Of a stretch of 64,000 nt of DNA, positions 19,375 to 30,675 are shown piece after piece. The notes under the pieces are model-generated. The model had not been told where the DNA came from. It saw only the letters and a program-made list of their open reading frames with translations, and made no database searches. The stretch is from Pseudomonas sp. MPC6 (GTDB lineage Bacteria; Pseudomonadota; Gammaproteobacteria; Pseudomonadales; Pseudomonadaceae). The stretch covers positions 5,793,001-5,857,000 of the forward strand of contig NZ_CP034783.1 of assembly GCF_006094435.1 (NCBI RefSeq). The letters run 5' to 3'. Position 1 is the first letter of the stretch. Each line of letters begins with the position of its first letter. A program made the translations under genes and the position numbers.

Positions 19375-20784
19375 ATGCAGGTTCAACGCGCAGTCATCGC
19401 CGCCATCGAATTCCAGCCCGGCGCGCCGCTGGTGCAGCAGATCGTCGATCAGCTGACCGCTGCGATCAGCCAGGGCGGCCTGCCCCACGGCTCCAGACTG
19501 CCGCCGATTCGCGAACTCTCCGATTTGATGAACGTCGGCAAGTCCACGGTGGTCGATGCCCTGGACCGCCTGCGGGCCAAGGGACTGGTGGTGTCACGCC
19601 AGGGTTCAGGGCATTTCGTGCACCGTTCCAGCCTGCCGATCCAGGCCGATGCCGGCCCCGACCTGCAACCTCAAGACACCCTCAGCGTGGTTCGCCGCGC
19701 GGTGCTGCTGGACAATGGCGCGCTGCGCCCCGGCGCCGGTTTCCTGCCGTCCTCGTGGCTGCCGGCCGACGAGTTGCTTAAAGCCGTGCGCGGCACCCTG
19801 CGCGCAACCTCCCTGCGCATGGGCGAATACGGCGTTGCCGGCGGTTACCTGCCACTGCGCGAGGCGTTGCGGGTGAAGCTGTCGACCCACGGCATCGAAG
19901 TGCCGGTAGACCAGATCATCACCACGGCCAACACTGTGCAAGCCATCGACATGCTGATGCGCCTGCTGGTCAAACCCGGCGATACAGTGCTGCTCGACGA
20001 CCCCTGTTACTTCACCATGCACGCCAACCTGGCCTTGCACGGAGCCAAGGTCATCACCATCCCCCGGGATTGTGACGGCATGGACCTGGAGGCCTTCGAG
20101 CAATTGCTGATCGCCCATCGTCCCGTGCTCTACATGACCAACAACGCCCTGCATAACCCGACCGGGCACTCGTTCTCTCCGGCACAGGTTTATCGCTTGC
20201 TGGAGTTGAGCCACCGTTACGGTTTCCACATCCTCGAAGACGATTTGTATTGCGACATGCAGCAACGCATGACGCCACGCCTGGCCGCGGGCGGGCTGGA
20301 CAACGTCAGTTACGTGTCTGGCTTCTCCAAGACCCTGACGGCCAACAGTCGGGTCAGCTATGCGGTGCTTTCGCCCCAACTGGCCGCACGGATGATCACC
20401 CTGAAAATGACCTGCGGTGGCATGACGTCGGAATTGGCGGAACAGATTATCTGCACGATGCTCAGCGATGGCAGTTATGCCAAACACACCCGGCGCACCG
20501 TGGACCGGCTCTACGAGTCGAGCAGTCGGGTGACGCGCTGGCTGCTGGAGGCCGGTTGCTCGGTGTCATCGCTGCCCCATGAAGGGTTGTTCATCTGGAC
20601 GCGATTGCCCGAAGGGCATCATGCCGAAACCCTGGCGAGGAAAGGCCTGGAGATCGATCTGGTGCTGGCGCCCGGCACGTTGCTCAGTAAGGCGCCGGAT
20701 GCGAGCCACTACCTGCGCTTCAACGTCGCTCACAGCGATAACACCCAGGTGCGCGAGCGGTTCTTGCGATTGCTCGACAGCTGA
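19375..20784 (+). CDS. MocR-type GntR regulator, likely cluster A regulator
   Basis: A 469-residue regulator with an N-terminal GntR winged helix (SRLPPIRELSDLMNVGKSTV, then VVSRQGSGHFVH). It is followed by a full aminotransferase-like domain with NPTGHSFS, ILEDDLYCD and the PLP-lysine segment SGFSKTLTANSRVSYAV. It is transcribed divergently from the MFS-led operon across a 149-bp gap containing two inverted repeats, the usual arrangement for a pathway-specific MocR regulator that is also self-regulated. An amino-acid-like pathway intermediate is the probable effector. Confidence 0.86.
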   Translation: MQVQRAVIAAIEFQPGAPLVQQIVDQLTAAISQGGLPHGSRLPPIRELSDLMNVGKSTVVDALDRLRAKGLVVSRQGSGHFVHRSSLPIQADAGPDLQPQDTLSVVRRAVLLDNGALRPGAGFLPSSWLPADELLKAVRGTLRATSLRMGEYGVAGGYLPLREALRVKLSTHGIEVPVDQIITTANTVQAIDMLMRLLVKPGDTVLLDDPCYFTMHANLALHGAKVITIPRDCDGMDLEAFEQLLIAHRPVLYMTNNALHNPTGHSFSPAQVYRLLELSHRYGFHILEDDLYCDMQQRMTPRLAAGGLDNVSYVSGFSKTLTANSRVSYAVLSPQLAARMITLKMTCGGMTSELAEQIICTMLSDGSYAKHTRRTVDRLYESSSRVTRWLLEAGCSVSSLPHEGLFIWTRLPEGHHAETLARKGLEIDLVLAPGTLLSKAPDASHYLRFNVAHSDNTQVRERFLRLLDS

Positions 20785-20800
20785 CACCCCCCTGTCGAGG

Positions 20801-21568
20801 CTAGAAATTGTCCAGATAGGCTGTTGGGGCTTGCCCCAATATCCTACGAAACATTGTTGAAAACGCAGCAGGGCTTTCATACCCAAAATCAAGGGCTATC
20901 CGTGTAATGGATGCTCCGGCGGACAACCTTGCCAATGCAAGGACAACGCAGGCACGCTGACGCCACTGACCGAAGCTCATCGTAGTCTGCTCGCGGAACA
21001 GACGGCTGAACGAGCGCTCACTCATATATAGGTCACGCGCCCAGTCTTGGGGCGATTGATGAATGTCGGGCATCTGAAGAAATGCCTGGCACCGGGACAA
21101 TAAACGCGGATCAATCGGCAGCGGGATATGAAAAGGTAATTCTGTGGCCCGGGCCAATTCATGTAGCAAAAGACTCATCAACGCGCCATCCCGGCCCTGT
21201 TCTTCATATTCAAGCGGTACGTCTACGGACTCCATCAGCAACTGGCGCATCAACGGAGAGACGCTGATGACTTGGCAGTCGGTTCTGGTTGAAGGAATGG
21301 AAGCGGGCTCAATATAGAGGCTTCTGGTACTCACCCCAAAGTACAGCACCTCATGCGCAACCTGCGGCGGGATCCACACTGCACGCTGGGGTGGAACGAT
21401 CCAGTTGCCACCCTTTGTCACGACCTTCATTACCCCTTTGGCGCCATAGAGGAGCTGTGCGCGCCGATGGGTATGGCTGGGATGCAAAAATCCATCGGGA
21501 TAGTCGGATCCGATGGCAACAACGGAGCGAGGGGTAGCATCCAGCACGTGGATCGGAATGTTTCGCAT
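20801..21568 (-). CDS. AraC-family transcription regulator with cupin-type sensor domain
   Basis: A 255-residue regulator. The N-terminal part has the AraC ligand-binding cupin pattern (HPSHTHRRAQLLYGAKGVM, VPPQRAVWIPPQVAHEV). The C-terminal 100 residues carry two helix-turn-helix units (MSERSFSRLFREQT and ITRIALDFGYESPAAFSTMF). An earlier in-frame ATG at 21616 exists, but 21568 matches the family start. It is divergent from the TSUP permease gene 112 bp away and probably controls it. Its gene is convergent with the MocR gene. Confidence 0.86.
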   Translation of the reverse strand: MRNIPIHVLDATPRSVVAIGSDYPDGFLHPSHTHRRAQLLYGAKGVMKVVTKGGNWIVPPQRAVWIPPQVAHEVLYFGVSTRSLYIEPASIPSTRTDCQVISVSPLMRQLLMESVDVPLEYEEQGRDGALMSLLLHELARATELPFHIPLPIDPRLLSRCQAFLQMPDIHQSPQDWARDLYMSERSFSRLFREQTTMSFGQWRQRACVVLALARLSAGASITRIALDFGYESPAAFSTMFRRILGQAPTAYLDNF

Positions 21569-21680
21569 GGGATGTCTTATCGGAAAGTGGCTGAAACTCA
21601 AACATAGTTGGCTCAAATGCTCAAGCCGCTCGCAATCGAGTGACCTATCTTACGCCGCGATTCTTATTGGATTAAGCGTA

Positions 21681-22496
21681 ATGAGCTATATTTTGCTGGG
21701 TTTTTTTGGTTGTTTTGCAGGCGTCACCACCGTTTTATTCGGATTTGGGGGCGGTTTTGTAATAGTGCCTGTCCTCTATCGGGTTTTGTTAGCCATGCAT
21801 GGTGCCGATGACATCATCGCCCAGTCAGCAATGCATATTGCTGTGGCTACCTCTACCTGCGTCATGATTGTAAATGCATCCATTAGTACAAGAAAACATG
21901 CGCGTTCCGGCACTCTATTAATGCCTTATCTGTGGCCTCTTGCCGGCTACATTGGTCTCGGGGCAATTGCCGGAGCTATTACCGCGCAGCTGTTCAATAG
22001 CGAAATGTTACGCATGGCGTTCGTAGTATATTTAGCGATCACTATTGTTGATTGTCTGTTCCGCCGTGGCTTCATTGAGCAAATAGCAAACAACCAACCC
22101 AAAGAGCTGAGCAAACTCGCCACGATACCGGGCGGCATGGGCATTGGAGCCATTGCAACTGTCCTCGGGGTCGGCGGCAGTGTCATGACGGTTCCCTTGC
22201 TTCGGCGCTGCGGCTTGAGCATGACTCAGGCCACCTCAATGGCCAATCCTCTTAGTCTACCGGTAGCGCTGGCAGGAACAGTGACATACGTACTGGTAGC
22301 GGAAGTTGGAGGTTACGACTTTGGAGCCGGATACCTCGGTTATGTCGATCTTCTCGCGTTTGGTATATTAACGCTGGGGGCTGTGTTTGGCATCCGGCTG
22401 GCGACCCCATTGATCGGGAAGACGCCGGATCGCATTCACGCGATTGTGTATATAAGTCTCCTCGTGCTTGTCCTGTTGAGCATGGTATTTAAGTAA
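21681..22496 (+). CDS. TSUP (TauE/SafE) family permease
   Basis: A 271-residue membrane protein with about eight hydrophobic helices. The two repeated TSUP signatures are visible: FGFGGGFVIVPVL near residue 20 and GVGGSVMTVPLL near residue 160. The family moves sulfonates, sulfite or other small anions. ATG 21681 begins directly with a membrane helix; the frame extends upstream without a convincing start. It is paired with a divergent AraC gene and probably belongs to that unit rather than to cluster B, which begins 142 bp downstream. Base composition is already lower in GC here than in cluster A. Confidence 0.8.
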   Translation: MSYILLGFFGCFAGVTTVLFGFGGGFVIVPVLYRVLLAMHGADDIIAQSAMHIAVATSTCVMIVNASISTRKHARSGTLLMPYLWPLAGYIGLGAIAGAITAQLFNSEMLRMAFVVYLAITIVDCLFRRGFIEQIANNQPKELSKLATIPGGMGIGAIATVLGVGGSVMTVPLLRRCGLSMTQATSMANPLSLPVALAGTVTYVLVAEVGGYDFGAGYLGYVDLLAFGILTLGAVFGIRLATPLIGKTPDRIHAIVYISLLVLVLLSMVFK

Positions 22497-22638
22497 TGTA
22501 ATTCCACGCTCCGAACATTTAACGTCGTGCACAGCACTTGCTCGCAAAATTCACGTGCGCGACAAACACGAAACATCAAATTTTCGATGGACTTCCAAGT
22601 CTGGGGATCCATGCACATCATTGAAAAAGGCATAGAGC

Positions 22639-23796
22639 ATGAGCCGCATCAGACCTCAGATTTCACATCTGCTGGATCAACTACAACAGTTGAACATCGT
22701 CCTCCTTCCTATTGAAGAACGGATTGAAAAACTGGTCGAACTAAAAATCCATTCGCTCCCGGTTATTTTTCACAATATGACGGCAGAAGAGTACATGGCT
22801 GTGATTGCGAATCTGGCGCAATTGGATGCATCGTCTGCCCTGAGCCTGTCCATGCATCTTTATACGTTATGGGGCATCGCCACACGCCAGGGAGAAACGT
22901 TCTCCAGCGTCCTCGACGATGTATCAACTCATGGTCATTTGATGGGCTCGTTAAACGAGCCGGGGTTGTATTTTTTGAAACCTGGTCAGTTGAACATAGA
23001 AACGTACCCCATCAGGGCCAGAAAAGTCGAAGGCGGGTATCGAGTAACGGGGTTAAAGAATTTTGTATCGCTGGAGCCTTTTGTTTCTTACCTGCCAGTG
23101 TACTGCATGGTCGAAAACTACTCGGGGAACGACCTTGGTGTCATTGCGTTGATGTTAAGCAAAAATGGCGAGGGCGTTTCAGTTGTTGAGGACTGGAACA
23201 GCGTTGCCATGCAGGATACTCACAGCAACAGTGTGAAATTTGATAACGCATTTTGTCCTGATGCGTTTGTAATCTGTGACGAAAACACCCCTATATCTAC
23301 GCTGGCCATCCAAGGCTACCTGTTCCGTTTTAACGTGTGCTGCGTGTATCTCGGCATCTCGCGTCAAGTACTCGACTTGGCAATCAATACCGCCAGCACA
23401 AAACGCCCACCCAACGGAAGCAATGTCCTGGCGAAGTACCCCGGCGTGCAGTTTTCAATTGCTGAAATGCTGATTTCAATGGAAGTCATGGAGTCGCAGA
23501 TGCGCTCCTTCTGCTCCGTGCTGGATGATTTCCTGGCCAGCAAGGAGGATCTAGATTTAAACGTCAACAGAATCAGTCTCATTGCCAAGGAAGTCATCGC
23601 CCGCGAGTCAGAGTTGTTAGTTTCAAGCGCCATGAAAATAACCGGAATCAACAGCCTGTCAAATGAAAATCCGTTATCGAGTATCTTCAAGGATATAAAA
23701 GCTGCGCAATTTCATCCACCACAACGCGATGTAACGTATGAAATTCTGGCCAAAGAAAAACTCGGCGTAATATCTTACAAACAACGGTGGATGTAA
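22639..23796 (+). CDS. Acyl-CoA dehydrogenase-like flavoenzyme acting on a carrier-bound substrate
   Basis: A 385-residue protein of the acyl-CoA dehydrogenase superfamily. Residues 40-75 are the helical N-terminal domain (MAVIANLAQLDASSALSLSM). Residues 110-200 are the beta domain (YRVTGLKNFVSL, DWNSVAMQDTHSNSVKF). The end is the C-terminal helical bundle with FHPPQRDVTYEILAKEKLG. Divergent members in peptide antibiotic clusters oxidise aminoacyl or hydroxyacyl groups held on a carrier protein (ZmaI type). AAAAGG precedes ATG 22639. Only one base separates it from the ligase gene, so it is the first gene of the cluster B operon. Confidence 0.78.
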   Translation: MSRIRPQISHLLDQLQQLNIVLLPIEERIEKLVELKIHSLPVIFHNMTAEEYMAVIANLAQLDASSALSLSMHLYTLWGIATRQGETFSSVLDDVSTHGHLMGSLNEPGLYFLKPGQLNIETYPIRARKVEGGYRVTGLKNFVSLEPFVSYLPVYCMVENYSGNDLGVIALMLSKNGEGVSVVEDWNSVAMQDTHSNSVKFDNAFCPDAFVICDENTPISTLAIQGYLFRFNVCCVYLGISRQVLDLAINTASTKRPPNGSNVLAKYPGVQFSIAEMLISMEVMESQMRSFCSVLDDFLASKEDLDLNVNRISLIAKEVIARESELLVSSAMKITGINSLSNENPLSSIFKDIKAAQFHPPQRDVTYEILAKEKLGVISYKQRWM

Positions 23797-23797
23797 A

Positions 23798-24949
23798 ATG
23801 AATATGTTTGCAAAGCAGATTCCAAGCAGCGACTTGAACCAAATAAAAGCGGCACTACCCGCCAAAATAATGAACGGGCGACTGAGTGAGTTGCTGGAGC
23901 GCATTCCGTACATCAGCGAATCGGTGAAAAGTGTTAAATACCTCGAACGTGAGCACGCCACACTAATCGATATTGACACTCAAGATTTGGCAGAACGGGA
24001 CAAGATCAACGTTGATCTGGACGAACTCATCGACGCTTTGCTGGTGTCGAAAATATCTGCTCAAAAAACATTAAAAGTCCATGCGCGCCCGAATGGCGAA
24101 TCCAAGACCAAATACCCTGACAACTCCGCAGACTATTACGATGGAAATGATGTACGCCTGATGGAGGCCATAGACAGGTTACTGCTTGAAGTAGCGGTTC
24201 GTCACGGTGCCCAGGTGCGGGAATATCCATCGATTTATACAGCTGACATAATGGAAAGAAATGGCTACCATAAAAACTTCCCGCAGAATGTTTATGGTGT
24301 CACGCAAATACCCCATAACTACACCCTGATTAAAGAAATTCGCGAATCCCAGTCATCGACCATTCCTGCTAATTTATTTCAGAATCATGGCGCCTTCTTA
24401 CAGCCATGTGTTTGCTACCACTGTTACGCAGAAACCCAGCAAACCGTGCAATCGGAAATCATGTTTACGTTGAAGGGGCGATGCTTTCGACATGAGATTC
24501 AGTGGCGACTCAACACCTTCCGTCGCAACGAATTCACCATGCGTGAAATAGTGTTCATGGGCAGCCAAGCGTACGTGGAAAGCAAGCGACTGGGCATCAT
24601 GGATGAAATCTGGGACCTTTTTTGCTCGCTTGGTCTTTATGGTCAGGTCGTGACCGCTCGCGATCCCTTTTTTCATTATGACGACATGAAAACCAAAGGC
24701 GCGGTGCAATTAATGGCGGACGCAAAGTACGAACTGGAATTCATTTCTGCCAACGGCAACGCGAGTTCCATAGCGTCGTTCAACAATTGCCAGGATACGT
24801 TATGTGAAAAGTTTGAAGTCACCAATGATGAAAAAAACTTTTTGCATTCTGGCTGTGTAGCTTTCGGAATTGATCGATGGCGTGCAGCTTTGCATGAACA
24901 GTATGGTCCTGATAATCGTAACTGGCCTGAAAAACTAAAAAATGCGTAA
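23798..24949 (+). CDS. SerRS-like amino acid:carrier protein ligase
   Basis: A 383-residue class II aminoacyl-tRNA-synthetase core without a tRNA-binding domain. Motif 2 is at residues 228-255 (RCFRHEIQWRL, then EFTMREIVFMG) and motif 3 at 350-365 (HSGCVAFGIDRWRAAL). C204 (LQPCVCYHC), E250 and C331 are candidate zinc ligands, as in the methanogen-type SerRS family. Such truncated SerRS homologues activate a small amino acid with ATP and load it onto a carrier protein instead of tRNA. A carrier protein gene follows 27 bp downstream, which supports this role. The amino acid (Gly, Ala or other) cannot be told by eye. Confidence 0.82.
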   Translation: MNMFAKQIPSSDLNQIKAALPAKIMNGRLSELLERIPYISESVKSVKYLEREHATLIDIDTQDLAERDKINVDLDELIDALLVSKISAQKTLKVHARPNGESKTKYPDNSADYYDGNDVRLMEAIDRLLLEVAVRHGAQVREYPSIYTADIMERNGYHKNFPQNVYGVTQIPHNYTLIKEIRESQSSTIPANLFQNHGAFLQPCVCYHCYAETQQTVQSEIMFTLKGRCFRHEIQWRLNTFRRNEFTMREIVFMGSQAYVESKRLGIMDEIWDLFCSLGLYGQVVTARDPFFHYDDMKTKGAVQLMADAKYELEFISANGNASSIASFNNCQDTLCEKFEVTNDEKNFLHSGCVAFGIDRWRAALHEQYGPDNRNWPEKLKNA

Positions 24950-24976
24950 CGGAATCTAAAAAAGGAACATTGTGCT

Positions 24977-25228
24977 ATGGACTTGATTCAAGAAACCGTA
25001 TTTCGGGTGATCGGGAACGTTATAGGTTCTGCGCTGGCGGTCGATATGGATTCATCCCTATCCGAAATGCGGGTCAACTCTATAAAAATCATCCAAATCA
25101 TTGCCATGCTGGAGAACGAACTCAACTTCGAACTCGACGAGGAGGATTTGATCATGAGCAATTTTACTACACCTCGGCAAACAATCAACTTGCTTCGCGA
25201 AAAATACGGCTCGGTAGAATTAGCATGA
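24977..25228 (+). CDS. Acyl/aminoacyl carrier protein
   Basis: An 83-residue acidic four-helix carrier protein. The phosphopantetheine attachment serine is Ser35 in EMRVNSIKIIQI. The usual Asp before it is Asn here, a mild deviation from the D-S-L/I motif. Helix 3 and the ending TPRQTINLLREKY fit the family. It lies between the SerRS-like ligase and the formyltransferase and overlaps the latter by four bases (ATGA), implying translational coupling. The PPTase at 28394 is the presumed activating enzyme. It probably carries a single amino acid through oxidation and formylation. Confidence 0.88.
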   Translation: MDLIQETVFRVIGNVIGSALAVDMDSSLSEMRVNSIKIIQIIAMLENELNFELDEEDLIMSNFTTPRQTINLLREKYGSVELA

Positions 25229-26103
25229 CTTGTCGCATCGCCTACATATGTGGGATACAGGGATTGTCATTGGTCCCTCTCTTACAGGGCATTACTGAGC
25301 CTGAAGACCTGATGGTTTTTGCCTCGCAATCTGCCTGTAAGGAATGGGAGGGTAACGCCCAACATATAGAGCCTATTGAGTCCGCCGAGAGGTTAAAAGC
25401 GGCCTTGGTGACTTTCCAACCTGACATGATTCTTGTAATGACTTACCTTTCGAAATTAGATGTATCACTTTCGGAATTAAGCAAGTACGGCATGGTTAAC
25501 ATCCACCCTTCCCTGTTACCTGAATATCGCGGAGGAGCACCAATCTTTTATGCTCTGCAAAATGGCGAAGAACACGTAGGCGTGACTTATCATTTCATGA
25601 CCGAGGTGTTTGACCAAGGCGATATCATTGAACAAGCATCCATAAAAGTAACCCCCACGGACTGTGCCAGTTCGGTGTGGTTAAAGGTGATAAAGAAGAT
25701 ATTCGCTGGCCTGCCCCATGTTATCGAAAATCGAAGCCAGTGGAATTCAATGGCAAGAAAGCAGGATGAAAACGTTGCCACTACGATAGGATTTCCTTCA
25801 TTGGGGGAACGGAGTTTAAGCAAACTAAAAACCGTATCGGAGAACCTTAGTATCATCAGAGCGTGTGGCCGAGCTACGGGGGCACGGTTATCCCTGGAAG
25901 GCAATATAATTTTTGTCACCGAAGCAAGCGTGGCGCCGGCAAACGCCACATTGAATGAAAGCCCAGAGACCTGGATAGATAATGGAAGTACGCTTCTATT
26001 CAAGGTGCTTGACGGCTGGCTGGAAATCAACGCAGCGAAGCTCGACGGACTAAAAATATCTTCGTGGAGGTTTTTGATGGAAGCATTAGCCCATGGCGCT
26101 TAA
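25225..26103 (+). CDS. Fmt-like formyltransferase
   Basis: A 292-residue 10-formyltetrahydrofolate-dependent formyltransferase. The catalytic triad is visible: Asn92 and His94 in VNIHPSLLPEYRGGAP, and Asp130 in FDQGDI. The C-terminal 60 residues (KVLDGWLEINAAKLDGLKIS) resemble the OB-like domain of methionyl-tRNA formyltransferase. Start ATG 25225 overlaps the carrier protein stop. Context suggests that it formylates the amine of an aminoacyl carrier protein rather than initiator tRNA or a nucleotide sugar. Its 3' end overlaps the next gene by 11 bases. Function as a formyltransferase is well supported; the substrate is inferred. Confidence 0.85.
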   Translation: MTCRIAYICGIQGLSLVPLLQGITEPEDLMVFASQSACKEWEGNAQHIEPIESAERLKAALVTFQPDMILVMTYLSKLDVSLSELSKYGMVNIHPSLLPEYRGGAPIFYALQNGEEHVGVTYHFMTEVFDQGDIIEQASIKVTPTDCASSVWLKVIKKIFAGLPHVIENRSQWNSMARKQDENVATTIGFPSLGERSLSKLKTVSENLSIIRACGRATGARLSLEGNIIFVTEASVAPANATLNESPETWIDNGSTLLFKVLDGWLEINAAKLDGLKISSWRFLMEALAHGA

Positions 26104-27067
26104 TCAGAAAACATTGGACATCGAAAGCCAGCCATTCCCCTATGACACTGAACATTATGACAGGCGTTTTCTGGATTGCTGGCGAAGACAAGCCGTCGTA
26201 TTTCTGGACAAGTGTGGCGCTGACGTCGATCTGCTATTTTATAATTCACTTGCTTCGACAGACCGTATTTTTGAAGACCATATCCTGAATCACAAACCCA
26301 AGTATGCTTTTTTGACGCCCTCAATAGATAACGAGGGACTGTCTTTGACAGGCTGGCAACAAAACCTGAAGACGTACGAAACGTTCGAGGCGGCGGGCGA
26401 CGATCTAAGTGAGCACTTTGAGAAGGTTCCATTCGCCATCGTCATGGGCAGTGTATTTTATTTACCACATTGCCCTGAATACCACATGGAACATCTTAAC
26501 CACTCGATTGTGCTATCCGGACAACGCGCACACTCCGTTTGGGAGGTGATTGATGATGACCCCTCCTCTATATTGAGAACGTATCGCTACGATAAAAGCT
26601 ACATCGAGAGGTATTTCAACAACAATGGCGCACGCCTGATCAGATATTTCAATCCGGTCAAGATCGACACCACTGAGAGCGGACGTGACGCCGCCATTAA
26701 AAAGTGCGCAACTTACTTATCTTCAATGGAGGATAGTTACAAACTGCTTACGGAAATAGAATGGATTGCGAACAACCCATACGAATCGGTTAGCATTCGC
26801 GCAAAAAAAATACATGAGGCATTTTCAATATACTCCGGGTCGCGAAGTTTGTTTTCAAGATTTGCCGAACGTGTCTTGGGGGATCAAGTCGCTGCTTCCC
26901 ACTTAAATGACATCGCTGCTGAGGCAATGGTCATAAAATACGCCATGGCCAAGGCTGAAATCACACGCCGCATAAATGTCGGATCAATCGTATCGAGATG
27001 CGAAAAGCTGGCAGTTCAAGAACGCCGCACCCTTTCGCTGTTAAGAAAAAACCTGGGATGTTCTTAA
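26093..27067 (+). CDS. Unrecognised protein, possible acyl-carrier acyltransferase
   Basis: A 324-residue soluble protein with no family I can name with confidence. The middle contains a His-rich core, LPHCPEYHMEHLNHSIVLSG, followed by WEVIDDDPSS. Together these resemble the core of BtrH-like/DUF6005-type proteins found in natural-product clusters, some of which move an acyl group from a carrier protein to an amine. The C-terminal 100 residues are helical. It overlaps the formyltransferase by 11 bases and touches the MFS gene without a gap, so it is an integral operon member. The role as release or transfer enzyme is inference. Confidence 0.5.
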   Translation: MALNQKTLDIESQPFPYDTEHYDRRFLDCWRRQAVVFLDKCGADVDLLFYNSLASTDRIFEDHILNHKPKYAFLTPSIDNEGLSLTGWQQNLKTYETFEAAGDDLSEHFEKVPFAIVMGSVFYLPHCPEYHMEHLNHSIVLSGQRAHSVWEVIDDDPSSILRTYRYDKSYIERYFNNNGARLIRYFNPVKIDTTESGRDAAIKKCATYLSSMEDSYKLLTEIEWIANNPYESVSIRAKKIHEAFSIYSGSRSLFSRFAERVLGDQVAASHLNDIAAEAMVIKYAMAKAEITRRINVGSIVSRCEKLAVQERRTLSLLRKNLGCS

Positions 27068-28336
27068 ATGGCTTTAGACATAAAACTGGAAACGGACGAG
27101 TTAAGTTACAGAAAGCTTCTTGTTCAACCGAACTTCACAAGATTTTTTCTAAGCCAGGTACTGGTGAGCGTTGGCGACGGTTTTTTTGGAGTGCTGGTAA
27201 CATTTTTAGCGCTGACGATGGGAGCGTCAGCAAGTACGTTGGGTATCGTCGCGTTTTGTGTGACCTTTCCAAGAGGTGTCCTGGGCATTTTGGGCGGTGC
27301 GGTTGCCGACCAATATGATCGCAGAAAGCTGATGGTATTTTGTGATGTAGTCCGTGGGTCAGGTGTACTGATTCTAGCGTTGCTTGTGTTCATGAATGCT
27401 CTGGACATCTTCTTTCTTACGCTCATTGGCGCCGTTGTGACATCCACCTACGCTCTGTCGAAACCGGCAAGCAAAGCCTATGTTCCCAGTATTGTGGAAA
27501 AGAAAGAGTTAATACTCGCTAATGGACTGGTGCAAAGTGTGCTTTGGCCTTGTTTTTTTCTGGGAGCTGGTTTAGTAGGTTTTACAGGCGCGCTAAACGT
27601 AGCGCCGGCCAACGCCCTGATTGTCTGTGCGTTAATATTCTTTTTCTCGCAAATAGCCCTGACGAGCATCAAGGGGCACGTGACGCGCACTGCCGCTCGA
27701 ACTGCATTTTCCATGCTGCAACAGTTACGCGGTGGCTGGGAAGAGTTACTCAAGCATCGAGCGTTAATGGTAAGAATCACCAGCTATTTTCTTTACACAG
27801 TGTCCTGGCGCGGCACCCTGCAAATAGCGCTTCCTCTGTATGCAGTCAATACACTGAATCAACCTGCTACATTTTATAGCAGCCTGATGGTAGCTTGTGG
27901 GATCGGCGAGCTTATTAGCTCTTTGATTATTGGTAAATTACGGATCTCGAATAATTTGAGACTGGCGTTCTGCGGAGAAATAATTCTTGCTCTGGCACTT
28001 ATCATTCTCGTCGTGAATTCTTTTACAGGCATGCCTGCCTTAGTACTGGCGCTTATTGCCAGCCTGTTGATAGGGCTCTCAGCTACTGTCATTGACATCC
28101 CCCTGATCACAGCCATTCAGCACGACATAGACGATGACAAATCCGGAAAAATATTCAGTTACTGGAGCGCGCTAGGTGCACTAGGAGGAAGCGTAGGCAC
28201 CTTGATAGTCAGTGGACTCATCTATTTGATTGGTCTTCAAAATGCAATTATTTTCATGACGGCCTGGCTGACGCTCTCAGCAGTGGTCGCTTATGGAATC
28301 GCTTATACCAAGGTGCGAGGTGAGGGAAAGCAATAA
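27068..28336 (+). CDS. MFS exporter, EntS-like
   Basis: A 422-residue, 12-helix major facilitator protein. The loop between helices 2 and 3 carries GGAVADQYDRRKLM, the MFS motif A region, and the N-terminal PNFTRFFLSQVLVSVGD resembles the EntS/MFS_3 branch that exports siderophores and macrolides. It begins immediately after the stop of the preceding gene. In cluster B it most likely exports the finished small molecule and gives self-protection. A clear terminator lies only after the following PPTase gene. Confidence 0.85.
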   Translation: MALDIKLETDELSYRKLLVQPNFTRFFLSQVLVSVGDGFFGVLVTFLALTMGASASTLGIVAFCVTFPRGVLGILGGAVADQYDRRKLMVFCDVVRGSGVLILALLVFMNALDIFFLTLIGAVVTSTYALSKPASKAYVPSIVEKKELILANGLVQSVLWPCFFLGAGLVGFTGALNVAPANALIVCALIFFFSQIALTSIKGHVTRTAARTAFSMLQQLRGGWEELLKHRALMVRITSYFLYTVSWRGTLQIALPLYAVNTLNQPATFYSSLMVACGIGELISSLIIGKLRISNNLRLAFCGEIILALALIILVVNSFTGMPALVLALIASLLIGLSATVIDIPLITAIQHDIDDDKSGKIFSYWSALGALGGSVGTLIVSGLIYLIGLQNAIIFMTAWLTLSAVVAYGIAYTKVRGEGKQ

Positions 28337-28393
28337 ACTCAAGCTTCCACCGCGCGAACTACCGCTCATTGGCATCAACCACTAAACACCTCT

Positions 28394-29122
28394 ATGCCTG
28401 ACCTGAATGTATTCGCAGTAGCCGCCCCCACTTTCAAGCTCAAGCACTGCGGCTTGCCCTCGTATTTGGAATCGCTCTTGTCAGATGATGAGTTGCTTCG
28501 TGCCCATGGCATCAAAGACGAAACAAGCAGAACGGAATTCATACTAGGAAGAGCCCTCCTTCGCAGTGTGATATCCAGTTTACTCAACTCGGTGCCGCGC
28601 CATTTACCCATTCTTATCGAACACAATGGCAGGCCCTATTTAGATGGGCACAGCCTGCAATTCAGCTTGAGTCATGCTTGTGGGTACGTCTGTGTTGCAG
28701 CGTCAAGGAACAGCAGGGTTGGCGTCGATATCGAAGGCGGGGGCCTGTTGGAAAGGAGCGGTGTTTTGAACAAGTATCTTCGCAAGACATTCCTTGACGA
28801 CGAGGGCTCCTGCCTGACCTCAGCCGATTCCGATATCGTAGGCCATTGGTGTATGTGCGAAGCCTATGCCAAGTGTTCAGGCCAGGACATGCTTACCTCA
28901 ATGCGTTCTCAAGAGTTACGTAAACTGATCCGGCAGACACCAAGGTCTAGTTGGCATGTCGGTTCGAGTCACTCAATATGCCTGACGTCCGTTGCTAATG
29001 GCCAAATACCGCTCGCCCTGTGTGTGGATGCACTTCCAATGCCTTTCAGCGTTGTTGAAATTGACCTATCCGATGAGTTGTTCTTGAGCAAGCTACATCA
29101 GGAGTTGCACCAGACGGCGTAA
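28394..29122 (+). CDS. Sfp/EntD-type 4'-phosphopantetheinyl transferase, variant active site
   Basis: A 242-residue PPTase that would transfer phosphopantetheine from CoA to the carrier protein Ser35. FSLSHACGYV (90-99) and VGVDIEG (109-115, with magnesium ligands Asp112 and Glu114) are conserved. The third motif, usually W-x-x-KE-A-x-x-K, reads WCMCEAYAK at 152-160: Glu156 and Lys160 are kept, but the first Lys is Cys155. It is 57 bp downstream of the MFS gene and last in the cluster. It may serve only this carrier protein. Confidence 0.82.
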   Translation: MPDLNVFAVAAPTFKLKHCGLPSYLESLLSDDELLRAHGIKDETSRTEFILGRALLRSVISSLLNSVPRHLPILIEHNGRPYLDGHSLQFSLSHACGYVCVAASRNSRVGVDIEGGGLLERSGVLNKYLRKTFLDDEGSCLTSADSDIVGHWCMCEAYAKCSGQDMLTSMRSQELRKLIRQTPRSSWHVGSSHSICLTSVANGQIPLALCVDALPMPFSVVEIDLSDELFLSKLHQELHQTA

Positions 29123-29198
29123 TATTTCTTCACCGTCCCACTGAACGAAAATGTGTCCCTCGCCGTACGCTATTTGTCCCACCAGGCTTTAGAAATAA

Positions 29199-29230
29199 AA
29201 AAACCGCCCATCTTTCGAAGGGCGGTTTTT
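29199..29230. terminator. Bidirectional terminator after cluster B
   Basis: Perfect 9-bp stem AAACCGCCC (29201-29209) / GGGCGGTTT (29220-29228) with A-rich and T-rich flanks, so it can stop transcription from either side. It closes cluster B 78 bp after the PPTase stop. Confidence 0.88.
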
Positions 29231-29483
29231 CGATCCGATACCCGCAGATCAGAAACGCAGGCAAAGCGAGTAATTCGTTCGAGCAGATACCCTGCGCGTC
29301 TAACCTCCACTTCATCGGAGTGGCGGCTCAGAAATGCTGTTACTTCGCTTTCAAGGTTCGAATTCGAGTACCAAACAGCTTTGGCCGCGCTCACAAGCGC
29401 AGCTTCATCTGCCTGATTTAAAGGGTTTTGACCAGTGTGTCCAAGGCGGTTGAGAGGACGTGGCCGCTAAGGGGCTTCGTCAT
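29229..29483 (-). pseudogene. Possible degraded small gene
   Basis: A 21-codon reading frame (29483 to 29418, starting MTKPLSG) has a well-spaced GGAG ribosome site. It ends in a stop, and a second frame immediately continues with protein-like sequence (ADEAALVSAAKAVWYSNSN, then LERITRFACVSD) up to the terminator at 29199. This could be one small gene broken by a frameshift, or chance. No family recognised. Confidence 0.25.
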
Positions 29484-29599
29484 CTGAGCTCTCCAGAGTT
29501 GCTAACGTCCCGAGGTTAGAGAGGTGATTTCTGACCGACAACCTGAAAGCTTCGTGGGAAATTTCTGCTGTTTACCTGCCCATTTATTGCCGCCTGTAA

Positions 29600-29704
29600 G
29601 ACCGCCTTCGCGAGCAAGCTTGCTCCTACAGAAGTTCAGCGCCGTACTCAGCATGAGGGGCTGACCCCGATCTGCTGTAGGAGCAAGCTTGCTCGCGAAG
29701 GCGG
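29600..29704. repeat. REPIN, third sequence type (GTAGGAGCAAGCTTGCTCGC)
   Basis: Inverted pair: GCGAGCAAGCTTGCTCCTAC around 29610-29629 and GTAGGAGCAAGCTTGCTCGC at 29678-29697, with GCCTTCGC/GCGAAGGC extensions. The REP core differs from the two other types in the window by its AAGCTT centre. Confidence 0.85.
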
Positions 29705-29732
29705 CAACCCGGTCCACCAGTAAACCGCCCAT

Positions 29733-29768
29733 AAAAAACCCCGCACTTCTCTCGAAGGCGGGGTTTTT
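29733..29768 (-). terminator. Terminator of the cyo operon
   Basis: AAAAACCCCGC / GCGGGGTTTTT stem with a 13-base loop, 20 bp beyond the cyoE stop on the minus strand. Confidence 0.9.
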
Positions 29769-29787
29769 CTTTTACAGCATCCGACGC

Positions 29788-30675
29788 TTAAGGCGCGTAA
29801 GTCAGCAACAACTCACTCGGCACCTGGAAGTCCAGCGACATCATCACGCTCAACGCGGTAATGGTGAAGATCGAGAACACGAACAGCTTGCGTGCCCAGA
29901 CCGTGTCATCCACTGCCTTGTAGCCGGTCCAGGCCATGTACAACCAGTACATGCCCATGGCCGCGGCGACGGCGAGGTAGCTCATGCCGGCGTAGCCGCT
30001 GAAGGTCAGCATCAAGGTCGCCACGAGGAACGCCAGGATGTAGAGCAGGATGTGCTTCTTCGCCACTTCAATCCCGCGCTTCACCGGCAGCACCGGGATC
30101 GATGCGGCCAGGTAATCGTTGAAGCGGAAGATCGCAATGGCGTAGGAATGCGGCATCTGCCACAGGCTGAACATCACCAGCAGCGTCAGGGCGGCCATGT
30201 CGAAGCTGTTGGTCACAGCGACGTAGCCAATCACCGGCGGCATCGCCCCCGACAGACTGCCCACCAGCGTGCCGTGGACCGACTTGCGCTTGAGGTACAG
30301 GCTGTAGAAGCCGACGTAGATGACGAAGCCGATTACCGCGAACAAAGCGGCCAACGGGTTGGCCACCTTGTACAACAGCGCAACGCCGAAAACACCCAGG
30401 ACGGTCGCAAAGGCCAGGGCCAGTTTCAGGGAGATCAAGCCCTGGACCAGCGCCCGGTTCTTGGTGCGTTCCATCTTCAGGTCGATGTCGCGGTCGATGC
30501 AGTTGTTGAACACGCAACCGGAAGCCACTACCAGGGACGTGCCGATCATCGCAGCCAGGAAGATGGCCAGATCGACATGCCCTTTGGAGGCCAGGAAAAA
30601 TCCGCCTGCCACTGAAAGCACGTTACCGAAAATGATCCCCGGCTTGGTGATTTGGATAAAGTGCTTCAAGGACAT
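29788..30675 (-). CDS. cyoE: Protohaem IX farnesyltransferase CyoE (haem O synthase)
   Basis: Attaches a farnesyl group to haem b to make haem O for the CyoB catalytic site. The 295-residue protein has multiple membrane helices and the prenyltransferase motif [18 protein letters not shown] (N-x3-D-x3-D). It is the last gene of cyoABCDE, 11 bp after cyoD, and is followed by a strong terminator. Length and order match the standard operon. Confidence 0.95.

Follow-up and report, generated by a model that had tools for sequence, protein, structure and literature searches.

The window analyzed here, a stretch of 64,000 nucleotides from Pseudomonas sp. MPC6 (contig NZ_CP034783.1, positions 5,793,001 to 5,857,000; genome size 7.2 Mb), contains an operon of seven genes whose products may load a small amino acid onto a carrier protein, oxygenate and N-formylate it there, transfer it to an amine and export the product. 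We give this reading, which is drawn from sequence comparisons, about an even chance. What the sequences establish is the gene set, its order, the selection on it and the conserved residues, whereas the folds are predicted. In the pathway that we infer, as to substrates, order of steps, acceptor and product alike, a 4'-phosphopantetheinyl transferase (PPTase) would arm the carrier, and a zinc-dependent ligase resembling seryl-tRNA synthetase (SerRS) would activate a small amino acid with ATP and load it (glycine, alanine or serine by analogy). A flavin-dependent monooxygenase would then oxygenate the tethered amino acid, most likely at nitrogen and perhaps at carbon, and an Fmt-like enzyme would N-formylate it from 10-formyl-tetrahydrofolate. 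Finally, a CcbD/CtaG-like enzyme would take the acyl group onto Cys29 and pass it to an amine acceptor (or to water), and a major facilitator superfamily (MFS) protein would export the product. Hadacidin, N-formyl-N-hydroxyglycine, is a free small molecule known from fungi. A more specific version of the pathway, which we consider unlikely, has N-hydroxylation followed by formylation, so that the operon would build a carrier-bound N-formyl-N-hydroxy aminoacyl unit (a hadacidin-like retro-hydroxamate) by means of charging and formylating enzymes akin to those that start translation, and hand it to an amine via the CcbD-like enzyme.

The seven open reading frames lie head to tail on the plus strand between positions 22639 and 29122 and are separated by 1, 27, -4, -11, 0 and 57 bases in gene order. 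Their G+C content is 47%, compared to 60% for the window outside positions 20001-30000. The tight, AT-rich seven-gene operon described in an earlier sequence-only reading was thus confirmed. A scan for promoters and terminators gave nothing useful above shuffled sequences (7 vs. 10.9 and 12 vs. 8.5), and PADLOC, run on five of the seven proteins, found no match to a defence system.

The same seven genes were found in identical order in four other genomes: P. fluorescens PS645, P. graminis and G660, which all belong to the genus Pseudomonas, and a distantly related Roseobacter. A contig scan with the ligase detected three relatives, from PS645, P. graminis UASWS1507 and Roseobacter sp. HKCCD6576-2 (76%, 66% and 54% identity), and all three loci have the full gene order; since the scan used six exact peptide patterns, it catches close relatives only. 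The whole G660 cluster is 90-97% identical to that of the window, and comparison of the two gave ratios of nonsynonymous to synonymous substitution rates (dN/dS) of about 0.10-0.36 for all seven genes; for the more distant clusters, most comparisons gave a dS that was saturated or could not be computed. All seven genes are under purifying selection.

Outside these genomes the cluster is scarce. A profile of the cysteine enzyme matched in 8 of 398 genomes of the genus, four closely (the genome itself, PS645, P. graminis and G660) and four distantly, and in 398 genomes of the phylum and 312 of the class it found the genome itself only. Among near relatives, the ligase query likewise found its own genome only and was absent from 56 of 57. 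In the phylum sample it matched in 44 of 398 genomes, the other 43 at 25-31% identity, and no other cluster gene was recognized in the 29 ligase loci fetched from these (~2-4 kb each). This rare and patchy occurrence fits horizontal spread of the cluster. The Roseobacter copy has two integrase genes upstream of the cluster.

The ligase gene (23798..24949, plus strand) encodes 383 amino acids and matches PF00587 and PRK07080, the amino acid--[ACP] ligase family (110.5 bits, below the equivalog cut-off of 357). Among solved proteins it resembles Bll0957, an amino acid:[carrier protein] ligase (E 2.5e-15), and, more weakly, SerRS of the archaeal type, whose serS family was also matched. Residues C206, E250 and C353, identical in all five clusters, align with the Cys, Glu and Cys that we take to be the zinc ligands of Bll0957. 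The first reading had described a synthetase core without a tRNA-binding domain. In support, no Pfam or NCBIfam family matched the first ~100 residues; the protein does have an N-terminal extension of ~110 residues with conserved stretches. The ligase alignment did not reveal which amino acid is preferred.

In a 37-row tree (midpoint-rooted; the fetched ligase loci L011, L021, L023 and L027 as well as phylum matches without a locus were left out), the ligases of the five clusters group together (99/96) and share a branch (100/99) with those encoded on plasmids of Alkalihalophilus, Priestia and Streptomyces decoyicus. The ligases of Azospirillum, of three other Streptomyces and of other proteobacteria fall outside this branch. 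Deeper placements are unsure because of the midpoint root and several long branches. In the Alkalihalophilus and Priestia loci, a gene for a BtrH-type protein and a carrier gene lie beside the ligase gene; across these two loci (L037:9067-16766 in Alkalihalophilus and L039:9725-14704 in Priestia), the surroundings are a polyketide-like cluster and ATP-grasp and MurF-like genes. The combination of ligase, BtrH-type protein and carrier in these two loci is a recurring loading-and-transfer module.

The carrier protein (24977..25228, plus strand, 83 amino acids) matches PF00550 (E 3.3e-8), and its attachment residue, Ser35 within the motif NSI/NSV, is kept in all five clusters. The putative PPTase (28394..29122, plus strand, 242 amino acids) was assigned from matches to the HetI family (55 bits, cut-off 370) and PF01648 (21.7 bits, cut-off 25), both below their cut-offs. 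The exporter (27068..28336, plus strand, 422 amino acids) matches PF07690 with 106 bits.

The formyltransferase gene (25225..26103, plus strand) encodes a stand-alone Fmt-like protein of 292 amino acids. As noted previously, its start lies in the last four bases of the carrier gene (ATGA); since this overlap is present in all five clusters, it suggests that the two genes are translationally coupled. The catalytic residues N92, H94 and D130, which had been reported as intact in the window, are identical in all five clusters. The protein matches PF00551 with 82.4 bits and TIGR00460 (Fmt) with 89.5 bits (equivalog cut-off 201.5), and its score reaches the curated cut-off of none of the seven listed families, among them Fmt and ArnA. 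Support for the proposed OB-like tail is weak: PF02911, the tRNA-binding OB domain at the C terminus of Fmt, scored 14.7 bits (cut-off 21.1). LgrA was matched weakly as well (33 bits). Of 175 plasmid records with relatives, the 20 listed were annotated as ArnA or formyltransferase or had no annotation, with identities of 27-31%. Taken together, the zinc site of the ligase, the adjacency and overlap of the genes, the PPTase and the kept gene order seem to support the earlier proposal that the carrier stands in for tRNA as the partner of ligase and formyltransferase alike.

The formyltransferase could instead act away from the carrier. Its substrate would then be the acceptor amine or some other metabolite (an amino sugar or a free amino acid, for instance), to be acylated afterwards by the cysteine enzyme. 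Its about equal similarity to Fmt, ArnA and sugar formyltransferases would be compatible with such a role. We consider it rather unlikely, as none of the seven genes belongs to a sugar-nucleotide family and the four-base overlap ties the formyltransferase gene to that of the carrier in every cluster.

The first gene of the operon (22639..23796, plus strand, 385 amino acids) encodes a flavoprotein of the acyl-CoA dehydrogenase fold (PF00441/PF08028), which is probably the flavin-dependent component of a two-component monooxygenase. This assignment is based on the missing catalytic glutamate, the monooxygenase relatives and a reductase gene in P. graminis. The best solved sequence relatives, at 91 bits each, are 5z8t, titled as a flavin-containing monooxygenase, and 5gj7, titled as a putative acyl-CoA dehydrogenase, followed by KijD3, DnmZ and DszC at 33-40 bits. 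Among curated families FadE16 scored best with 52 bits and DszC came next with 45; RedW, at 35 bits, is also one of the top matches. All of these scores lie far under the cut-offs. Of 128 plasmid records with relatives, the 20 listed are 26-28% identical. In all five clusters, the flavoprotein has a proline at the position of the catalytic glutamate that we take to be of the MCAD type and a gap at that presumed to be of the IVD type. The alignment took in four flavoproteins of other ligase-carrier loci and no ZmaI sequence; one catalytic glutamate is retained in three of these four (Alkalihalophilus and two Streptomyces), and the Azospirillum protein is without both. On the Azospirillum plasmid (L083:3710-7039), genes for a carrier, this acyl-CoA-dehydrogenase-fold protein, a ligase and a DUF1839 protein stand in a row. 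In P. graminis, a flavin reductase (PF01613) is encoded between the exporter and the PPTase; it resembles HpaC, StyB and HsaB and scores under their cut-offs.

A ZmaI-like dehydrogenase, as named in the sequence-only reading, was rejected, because a glutamate is lacking at both canonical positions in all five clusters. That the flavoprotein nevertheless acts as a dehydrogenase in the manner of ZmaI, RedW or ColB1, forming a dehydroamino acid or an oxidised acyl group on the carrier and in the end an N-formyl dehydroamino acid derivative, is improbable in our view. Consistent with such an activity are its fold, the position of FadE16 and RedW among the top NCBIfam matches, the close ranking of dehydrogenases behind monooxygenases in the fold search, and the sets of ligase, carrier, dehydrogenase and 3-hydroxyacyl dehydrogenase on Streptomyces and Alkalihalophilus plasmids. 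Besides the missing glutamate, for which the alignment is less sure at the gapped IVD column, the absence of a 3-hydroxyacyl dehydrogenase from the seven genes argues against it. Furthermore, the cluster profile scores the Alkalihalophilus flavoprotein at 22 bits and one of the Streptomyces flavoproteins at 12 bits, compared to 91 bits between the window protein and 5z8t, and it does not report the other Streptomyces or the Azospirillum flavoproteins. The Streptomyces plasmid sets (L081:5347-10168 and L082:5287-10156) consist of genes for a 3-hydroxyacyl dehydrogenase, a carrier, an acyl-CoA dehydrogenase, a SerRS-like ligase and an acyltransferase domain; they presumably resemble those for aminomalonyl-carrier biosynthesis, with the SerRS-like ligase replacing the adenylation domain.

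The fifth gene (26093..27067, plus strand, 324 amino acids) encodes a cysteine enzyme for which the fold of CcbD, CtaG and AziU3 is predicted, with a papain-like N-terminal and a helical C-terminal part, making it a probable condensing or acyl-transfer enzyme; this resemblance had been missed in the sequence-only reading. A sequence search of solved structures gave nothing useful for this protein, and identity to the solved fold relatives is 10-14%. The BtrH_N family (PF14399) matched with 16.5 bits, under its gathering score of 29.7. C29, H134 or H137, and D154-156 are invariant across the clusters. C29 is placed at C11 of CtaG; it falls at C19 of CcbD in two of the four CcbD rows and is offset by two in the other two. 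The DUF1839 protein of the Azospirillum ligase locus was considered as a relative and dropped, since hhalign found no similarity. On a Vibrio halioticoli plasmid (L034:3158-11193), a relative of the cysteine enzyme adjoins an MFS relative, and this pair lies near genes for a lysine/ornithine N-monooxygenase, an EctB-like aminotransferase, a flavin adenine dinucleotide-dependent monooxygenase and an alpha/beta hydrolase. Another cluster in the genus (loci L053:3023-10827, from genome G537, and L054) encodes a chlorinating enzyme (TIGR01762, 409 bits), an AMP-binding ligase and a KAS III-like protein, and has a distant cysteine-enzyme relative next to a carrier; its gene content suggests a pathway to a chlorinated amino acid. 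For these two loci open reading frames were called and six L053 proteins were scanned; loci L051 and L052 were covered by profile scan.

A gamma-glutamyl group protects the side chain of butirosin during its synthesis by being attached and later lost, and the formyl group might similarly protect the amine during transfer and be removed afterwards, leaving a final product without it. The fold of the cysteine enzyme and its weak Pfam match, which place it in a BtrH-like group, point in this direction. We find this very doubtful: neither the seven genes common to all clusters nor the two extra operon genes include a deformylase, in a search that covered these genes and not the flanks or other parts of the genomes. 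A chance juxtaposition of the seven genes is ruled out by the recurring order and the dN/dS values.

Several results weigh against the proposed pathway of tethered oxygenation, formylation and transfer. A flavin reductase gene is present in one of the five operons only; Roseobacter has a gene for a flavin mononucleotide-dependent PPOX-type protein at the corresponding position, nothing is encoded there in the remaining three, and candidates elsewhere in the Pseudomonas sp. MPC6 genome are weak (five matches, best E 5e-14, 30% identity). The flavoprotein model is thin (four sequences), with a predicted local distance difference test (pLDDT) score of 59 and values below 50 for residues 99-222 and 355-385, and the fold search adds little because of this poor model and the nearby dehydrogenases. 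The cysteine enzyme model, also from four sequences, has a pLDDT of 69 and falls below 50 over residues 1-29, a stretch that includes Cys29. The cluster carrier profile detected no carrier next to relatives of the cysteine enzyme in any of three records (Vibrio, Xenorhabdus and Nonomuraea), the cluster cysteine-enzyme profile did not recognize the BtrH-type proteins of Alkalihalophilus and Priestia, and no acceptor gene is apparent.

Two neighbouring genes upstream are uncertain members of the cluster: a TauE/SafE-family permease (21513..22496, plus strand; PF01925, 132 bits), whose true start is probably further downstream, and a divergent AraC-type regulator (20801..21616, minus strand), its family named from sequence. 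In the window, as in all three other clusters of the genus, the permease gene directly precedes the cluster, and the regulator is kept at 78-98% identity in those three; the permease was not found in the Roseobacter locus. Among 58 other genomes of the genus that were searched, 19 have the permease, adjoined by the regulator in every case, and no cluster gene was found in these 19 loci (~3.8 kb seen each). The pair was therefore not kept as an obligate part of the cluster, as it occurs without cluster genes and the Roseobacter locus without the permease. It is also present upstream of the cluster in P. graminis, where no cyo genes turned up in the retrieved 21 kb.

If the proposed pathway is correct, it would be a compact assembly line: its seven genes encode neither adenylation nor condensation domains, and a ligase of the synthetase type and an Fmt-like enzyme would act on a carrier protein as though it were a tRNA. 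Its product would leave the cell and might be bioactive. Were the hadacidin-like version to hold, bacteria would have a carrier-tethered route to a group that binds metals and inhibits enzymes. With five whole clusters available and only seven genes in each, the pathway is directly testable in vitro. To our knowledge this combination of enzymes has not been described.

Each kind of enzyme is already known, and the operon is a variant of carrier-tethered amino acid tailoring. Ligases of the Bll0957 type load glycine or alanine onto a carrier, and the window ligase shares with them the SerRS-like core, the three zinc ligands and the adjacent carrier gene; it differs in its own branch, its N-terminal extension and its score under the PRK07080 cut-off. 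LgrA, of the linear gramicidin initiation module, formylates a carrier-bound amino acid within one large protein that includes an adenylation domain, whereas the same transfer, predicted here, would be carried out by separate proteins with a synthetase-type ligase. With the monooxygenases of the acyl-CoA dehydrogenase fold (5z8t, KijD3, DnmZ and DszC), the flavoprotein has in common that they are its best solved sequence matches and that the catalytic glutamate is missing; identities are 15-24% in the fold alignments listed, and its presumed substrate is on a carrier. The cysteine enzyme resembles CcbD, CtaG and AziU3 in predicted fold and BtrH by the weak Pfam match, and its invariant Cys, His and Asp may correspond to their catalytic residues; its low identity to the first three and the sub-cut-off BtrH_N score set it apart. 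Finally, a group like that of hadacidin could be made by this gene set.

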